A stretch of DNA of 64,000 nt from Roseovarius nanhaiticus. Lineage in GTDB: Bacteria > Pseudomonadota > Alphaproteobacteria > Rhodobacterales > Rhodobacteraceae. The position numbers and the translations under genes were made by a program. The stretch covers positions 434,001 to 498,000 of the forward strand of contig NZ_FTNV01000003.1 in the NCBI RefSeq assembly GCF_900156535.1, read 5' to 3'. The notes under the pieces are model-generated. The model saw only the letters and a list, made by a program, of their open reading frames with translations. It did not search any database and was not told where the DNA came from. Below are positions 20,379 through 25,277 of the stretch, piece after piece; the stretch's first letter is position 1; every line of letters starts with the position of its first letter.

Positions 20379-24844
<4,466 letters not shown>

Positions 24845-24857
24845 TGAGATCATCGCG

Positions 24858-24917
24858 CTTTGTTCTCAAATGTTCTTAAAAAGTTCTTTACAATGGTTAA
24901 TGAAAATGAGAACAAAG
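24858..24917 (+). promoter_or_regulatory. LexA (SOS) box inside an inverted repeat
   Basis: Bases 24872-24886 read GTTC-TTAAAAA-GTTC, a perfect match to the alphaproteobacterial LexA consensus GTTC-N7-GTTC. A TACAAT -10-like hexamer starts 3 bases later (24889-24894), so LexA bound here would block the promoter of the peptide gene at 24948. The box is enclosed by an 11-bp perfect inverted repeat, CTTTGTTCTCA (24858-24868) and TGAGAACAAAG (24907-24917), which itself carries a further GTTC/GAAC pair. Confidence 0.65.
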
Positions 24918-24947
24918 TAGCAACTGATCCACCGAAAGGATGCCACG

Positions 24948-25079
24948 ATGCTACACCAGATCAAAACTGCCGCGGCCCGGTCGCAAGAGACGCTGCTGGC
25001 GGATGCGCTTGGCGCTGCCGCTCTGGTCATCCTGCTGATGGGGTGCCTCTATATGCCTGGCCTCCTCCAGGGTTTCTGA
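24948..25079 (+). CDS. Small SOS-associated single-TM peptide (43 aa)
   Basis: A 43-residue ORF with a ribosome site (AAAGGA, 24935-24940) 7 bases before ATG 24948. The N-terminus is a short basic/polar helix (MLHQIKTAAARSQETLL) and residues about 22-40 form one membrane helix. It follows a LexA box by about 60 bp. Caulobacter SidA (29 aa) is an SOS-induced single-TM inhibitor of cell division with the same general design; similarity here is of design, not of sequence. A division-inhibitor role is an inference. Confidence 0.65.
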   Translation: MLHQIKTAAARSQETLLADALGAAALVILLMGCLYMPGLLQGF

Positions 25080-25241
25080 CACCGCCTGTTTCTGCCTGCG
25101 ATATCCCTTGCTTGGGCGCCTCGCATCACCTGTCCCCAAACCACGTGATGCATCACAGACCGACACTGCCTGTCCCTGGTCGATTCGGATCCTGCCTTTC
25201 CGGAACTGCGCTCAAGGTCCCTCATGGGAACACGCATTCCT

Positions 25242-25277
25242 CCGCCGCCATCCACACCGGATGCGCGGCGGTTTTTT
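25242..25277 (+). terminator. Rho-independent terminator
   Basis: A GC-rich hairpin (CCGCCGCCATCC, loop ACACC, GGATGCGCGGCGG with one bulge) followed by six T. It would end transcripts from recG and the 43-aa peptide, and it lies 18 bp before the convergent Fe-S scaffold gene. Confidence 0.8.

Follow-up and report, generated by a model that had tools for sequence, protein, structure and literature searches.

A conserved gene for a predicted membrane peptide downstream of recG and its putative LexA operators in Rhodobacteraceae

The recG–peptide locus

The peptide gene is located downstream of recG in the window (the whole stretch of 64,000 nucleotides of the Roseovarius nanhaiticus genome that was analyzed), and its ORF begins ∼100 bp after the recG stop codon at 24844. 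In the first-pass annotation, a tiny membrane protein with a good ribosome-binding site had been placed directly after recG, behind a GTTC-N7-GTTC box. The position after recG, the single-helix ORF of 43 amino acid residues with GAAAGGA ∼7 nt upstream, and the box itself were all confirmed (Table 1).

Table 1. Features of the recG–peptide locus (positions in the window)
Feature	Position	Strand	Basis or remark
recG	22709..24844	+	711-aa ORF; upstream same-strand neighbor of the peptide gene in the loci checked
Upstream extra GTTC half-site	24862..24865	+	next half-site 10 bp on; shared by 95 of the 101 unique promoters
Left putative LexA operator GTTC-N7-GTTC, GTTCTTAAAAAGTTC	24872..24886	+	abuts the −35
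Putative −35 TTTACA	24887..24892	+	TTTAC 93–100% conserved, following bases variable
Right putative LexA operator GAAC-N7-CAAC, GAACAAAGTAGCAAC	24910..24924	+	covers the −10/start
Ribosome-binding site GAAAGGA	24934..24940	+	from sequence
43-aa predicted single-helix membrane peptide, MLHQIKTAAARSQETLLADALGAAALVILLMGCLYMPGLLQGF	24948..25079	+	ORF, homologs, dN/dS, hydropathy, AlphaFold model
3′UTR with conserved motifs CTGCCTGCG, CCTGTCCC, CTGCCTGTCCC	25080..25241	+	
Intrinsic terminator: stem CCGCCGCCATCC / GGATGCGCGGCGG and T run	25242..25277	+	from sequence; position and form conserved

The hydropathy of the window peptide peaked at 2.3 over 19 residues, with the C-terminal half being the hydrophobic one, and the AlphaFold model consisted of one helix spanning residues 2–40 (mean pLDDT 88). 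Judged by hydropathy and the model, the peptide is predicted to be a short single-TM protein, a trait of the small division inhibitors of the SOS response. Homologs were found in 57 of 59 other genomes of the same genus by peptide search and in 322 of 394 Rhodobacteraceae genomes (nearly one genome per genus) by profile search, with genus and family labels as given by the search database; the number 322 is a lower bound, since a wider profile recovered genomes that were initially negative (e.g., G121, G136, G146, and G170). A shallow single-sequence search of 40 genomes that belong to the class but not to the family yielded only weak matches, with E values of 0.14 or worse, and no reliable homolog. 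The recG gene was found just upstream and on the same strand in all 30 genus loci, all 28 family loci, and all 30 loci that were fetched through the promoter array described below.

Among the homologs, the peptide was 38–43 amino acid residues long, and in 31 diverse members D19, G22, and L34 were invariant, with L26, L30, and P37 nearly so. Comparison of the window peptide with its five closest relatives gave a dN/dS of 0.12–0.18 or lower (dN 0.12–0.16, dS 0.9–1.8), a ratio well below 1; the peptide is therefore under purifying selection as a protein. No Pfam or NCBIfam family matched it, no match was obtained in phage and plasmid records, and no report of the peptide was found in a literature search.

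The 3′UTR, measured to the T run, had a median length of 187 nt in 131 of 145 loci, the peptide starts in this set being assigned by script. Three C/U-rich motifs (CTGCCTGCG, CCTGTCCC, and CTGCCTGTCCC; window region 25080–25277) were conserved in the family, and because only the terminator stem appeared in the consensus fold, the motifs look unpaired. The terminator is strong, with its position and form conserved among the loci, and it was not picked up by a simple terminator scan. Searches against Rfam returned nothing near the gathering score for the 3′UTR. A regulatory RNA could be derived from this region.

Architecture of the promoter

The promoters were aligned by a script anchored on GTTCTT and GAACAA, and 7 of 132 loci that misfit the anchor were excluded. 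Conservation of the anchor bases is therefore built into the alignment, whereas that of the remaining half-sites, of the 27-bp spacing, and of CAAC is independent of the anchoring. Among the 101 unique promoters, GTTC half-sites were located at −31 (27 promoters), −21 (95), −11 (99), and 0 (the anchor), and both half-sites of the left N7 pair were kept in 98–100% of 99 aligned promoters. In 99 of the 101 promoters, GAACAA began at a distance of 27 bp from the last GTTC, and the right half-site was CAAC, not GAAC, in 94%. The same promoter preceded the peptide gene next to recG in all 30 genus loci, all 28 family loci, and all 30 array loci that were fetched. Homologs lacking the box had been named as an observation that would speak against SOS control; in these loci the homologs kept it.

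The GTTC anchor is followed by TTTAC, a variable stretch, and then TGAGAACAAA-GnGG-CAACA. The stretch from TTTAC to TGAGAACAA varies in the way of a −35/−10 spacer, and TTTACA is therefore most readily interpreted as the −35 element. The hexamer TACAAT, which had been pointed out just behind the box, does occur at 24889–24894, but it was rejected as a −10 element: it overlaps the conserved −35 TTTACA, and the bases following TTTACA vary freely. Similarly, the perfect 11-bp inverted repeat described around the box is present, with CTTTGTTCTCA at 24858–24868 and TGAGAACAAAG at 24907–24917, but the full repeat is specific to this genome; the part of this region that is conserved in the family promoters consists of the GTTC/GAAC half-sites at fixed spacing.

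Of 198 family genomes, 125 contained exactly one copy of the array GTTCN5TGTTCN5AAGTTC, and the reversed control gave 1 match. All 30 copies that were fetched corresponded to the recG–peptide locus, and with one copy per genome no regulon sharing the array was seen. By sequence comparison, the promoter is among the most conserved non-coding elements met in the analysis. A deviating spacing was observed in one genome (locus L275 of G136), where N6 replaces N7 in both half-site pairs of the promoter after recG; a LexA that has shifted to another spacing may lie behind this.

Comparison with the SOS boxes of the clade

In Caulobacter, the LexA boxes are GTTCN7GTTC (PMC12700426). Within the clade studied here, GAACN7GAAC was present in the lexA promoters of 60 of 60 loci and in the recA promoters of 30 of 30 loci, and GTTCN5[AT]TGTTC was found before uvrA, uvrD, imuB, mmcB, and a splB-like gene (names read from the protein sequences; sites chosen for fitting GTTCN7GTTC). 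A LexA matrix was built only from the boxes of these seven genes. When the peptide promoters were scanned with this matrix, the right site scored best (mean 16.1) and the left site second (mean 8.2), against a background over all offsets with a mean of −23 and an sd of 6.9; the training groups averaged about 20–26. The two sites of the window, both imperfect, scored ∼7 each, compared with about 20–26 for standard boxes, and ranked 16–17 of 127,960; they are thus good matches, though weaker ones than the standard boxes.

The right element was a perfect GAACN7GAAC in four divergent genomes (loci L279, L281, L282, and L283), and in L281 and L283 the perfect box was located at the same 27-bp position, as counted by hand. 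As the two conserved N7 pairs are the best matrix sites of the promoter and the right box is perfect in divergent relatives, LexA control of the peptide gene, exerted through two putative operators rather than one, is considered likely. Such control is better supported by the comparison of genomes than a single sequence could have made it. Several sequence features speak against it: the right half-site has a conserved C, the second GTTC of the left box is preceded by A where the genome's remaining SOS boxes have T, and the extra half-sites are phased at 10 bp, which does not resemble a LexA box.

Most of the recA promoters of the genus (L157–L186) carry, upstream of GAACN7GAAC, a conserved AAATGTTCTC-like element that resembles the unit repeated in the peptide promoter.

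Genomes in which lexA was not found were regarded as a possible natural test and turned out to be mostly uninformative; masked stretches and draft gaps confound the calls of lexA absence. In G256 (L271), a single draft genome, the recA SOS box and the whole half-site array were both gone and the peptide was kept, which would fit a decay of the element upon loss of the LexA system. In G168 and G258, recA was missing along with lexA (draft gaps), and in G257, G259, G295, and G433 the recA box was kept although lexA was not found. The genome G249, in which the array was kept and lexA not found, was rejected as a counter-example: the gene order gltA-gltX-comEC-lexA places its lexA inside a masked 5-kb stretch after comEC, 1.96 of the 2.58 Mb of the main contig having been examined.

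SOS boxes were retained in G249 before uvrA, umuDC, and imuA (contig C1, positions 811761, 1087614, and 1602805), and these SOS-type boxes are without the usual T before the second GTTC. The flanking preference of LexA may, to judge from such sites, vary within the family.

Proposed regulation and alternative readings

Our main reading, to which a probability of roughly 0.6 is assigned, is that the locus forms a one-gene transcription unit downstream of recG that encodes a membrane peptide and is probably under LexA repression, with induction by DNA damage. Its established part comprises the conservation, the synteny, the purifying selection, the operator geometry, and the agreement with SOS boxes found elsewhere in the organism. 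LexA would occupy two direct-repeat operators with N7 spacing that face in opposite directions, the first beside the −35 and the second over the −10/start, and the extra phased half-sites would aid its cooperative binding. Upon DNA damage, self-cleavage of LexA would allow a burst of peptide, which would insert into the membrane in an N-in/C-out orientation and act on a membrane target. Binding by LexA, induction, and membrane insertion are inferred, and the target is a guess. The most likely target would be the late divisome, as for SidA, so that division would be delayed during repair.

That the peptide inhibits division in the manner of SidA is a plausible guess, made by analogy because SidA is the nearest alphaproteobacterial precedent. 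SidA of Caulobacter crescentus is a 29-aa SOS-induced division inhibitor that resides in the inner membrane and acts on FtsW (PMC4211646). The two have in common a very short inner-membrane protein (here predicted), an alphaproteobacterial host, and a LexA-type box GTTCN7GTTC, whereas the peptide is longer (38–43 aa), follows recG, has two putative operators with phased half-sites and, in the genomes sampled, occurs only in Rhodobacteraceae. DidA, a second division inhibitor of Caulobacter, is SOS-independent and induced by DriD, not by LexA (PMC4211646); it is likewise a small damage-linked membrane protein, but the peptide is under putative LexA control. SOS-controlled small membrane division inhibitors are also known as YneA in Bacillus and SosA in Staphylococcus (PMC13396833, PMC6851548), which are Gram-positive proteins and share with the peptide only the general design.

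The evidence on the operators would fit equally well a LexA-controlled peptide with another function, namely a depolarizing or dormancy peptide similar to TisB or a membrane adaptor for a different target. This is the main rival to division inhibition, although we regard it as somewhat unlikely. TisB of E. coli is a tiny SOS-induced membrane peptide whose mRNA contains substantial untranslated sequence and is controlled at the RNA level. The peptide resembles it as a tiny, putatively SOS-linked membrane peptide with a long untranslated mRNA part and differs from it in sequence features; the short single helix predicted by the model would suit such a role, and the long conserved 3′UTR recalls the RNA-level control of SOS peptides. 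A pore function is disfavored by the invariant Asp and Gly at the start of the helix and by its Leu-Pro end, which suggest a specific partner.

Control by a protein other than LexA was weighed as well. A dedicated activator, such as a head-to-tail OmpR-type response regulator, might bind the GTTC array and recruit RNA polymerase at the −35, with LexA absent or minor at the downstream site and a role of the peptide in envelope or other stress. The 10–11-bp phasing, the two to four repeats, the location of the site directly upstream of the −35, and the poor −10 would all fit class-II activation, and the missing T before the second GTTC of the left box points in the same direction. However, a single array per genome would be odd for a general regulator, the N7 spacing and the half-sites are identical to those of the clade's LexA boxes, and divergent genomes carry a perfect LexA box as the right element. 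CenR was rejected as the binder of the array, its published motif TGA-N8-TGA (PMC9275681) having no match to it. We consider activation of this kind unlikely. Still less can be said for a chance match of the box combined with a spurious ORF, even though the frequency of GTTCN7GTTC agrees with chance: 2 sites were found in the window, compared with 1.49 expected, and 43 of 100 shuffles reached two or more; genome-wide, 65 sites were found compared with 110 for the reversed pattern, which is not above chance. It is the conservation of the box, and not its frequency in a single genome, that gives it significance. Since the promoter, the peptide, and the synteny are conserved family-wide and the peptide is under purifying selection, the chance reading has already been refuted, and its probability is practically nil.

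A bolder version of LexA control is conceivable, in which the peptide would serve the whole family as an SOS checkpoint effector. LexA would sit on the two inverted operators and on the phased array, which is unique to this locus, and would tightly silence a dual-function mRNA; this mRNA would code for a membrane peptide of a new class, and its conserved regulatory 3′UTR would act as a small RNA. This version is thought to be improbable.

The peptide gene is unannotated, lacks a model in Pfam and NCBIfam, and could be overlooked by annotation for its shortness, and the strong conservation of its promoter makes LexA control directly testable. If the main reading is true, the promoter would be a LexA-controlled one with two opposed operators and extra phased half-sites, and the peptide would be a candidate SOS membrane effector for the Rhodobacteraceae, a large and ecologically important family. 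Based on the comparison of sequences, the peptide gene is likely to be part of the DNA-damage response in most Rhodobacteraceae.
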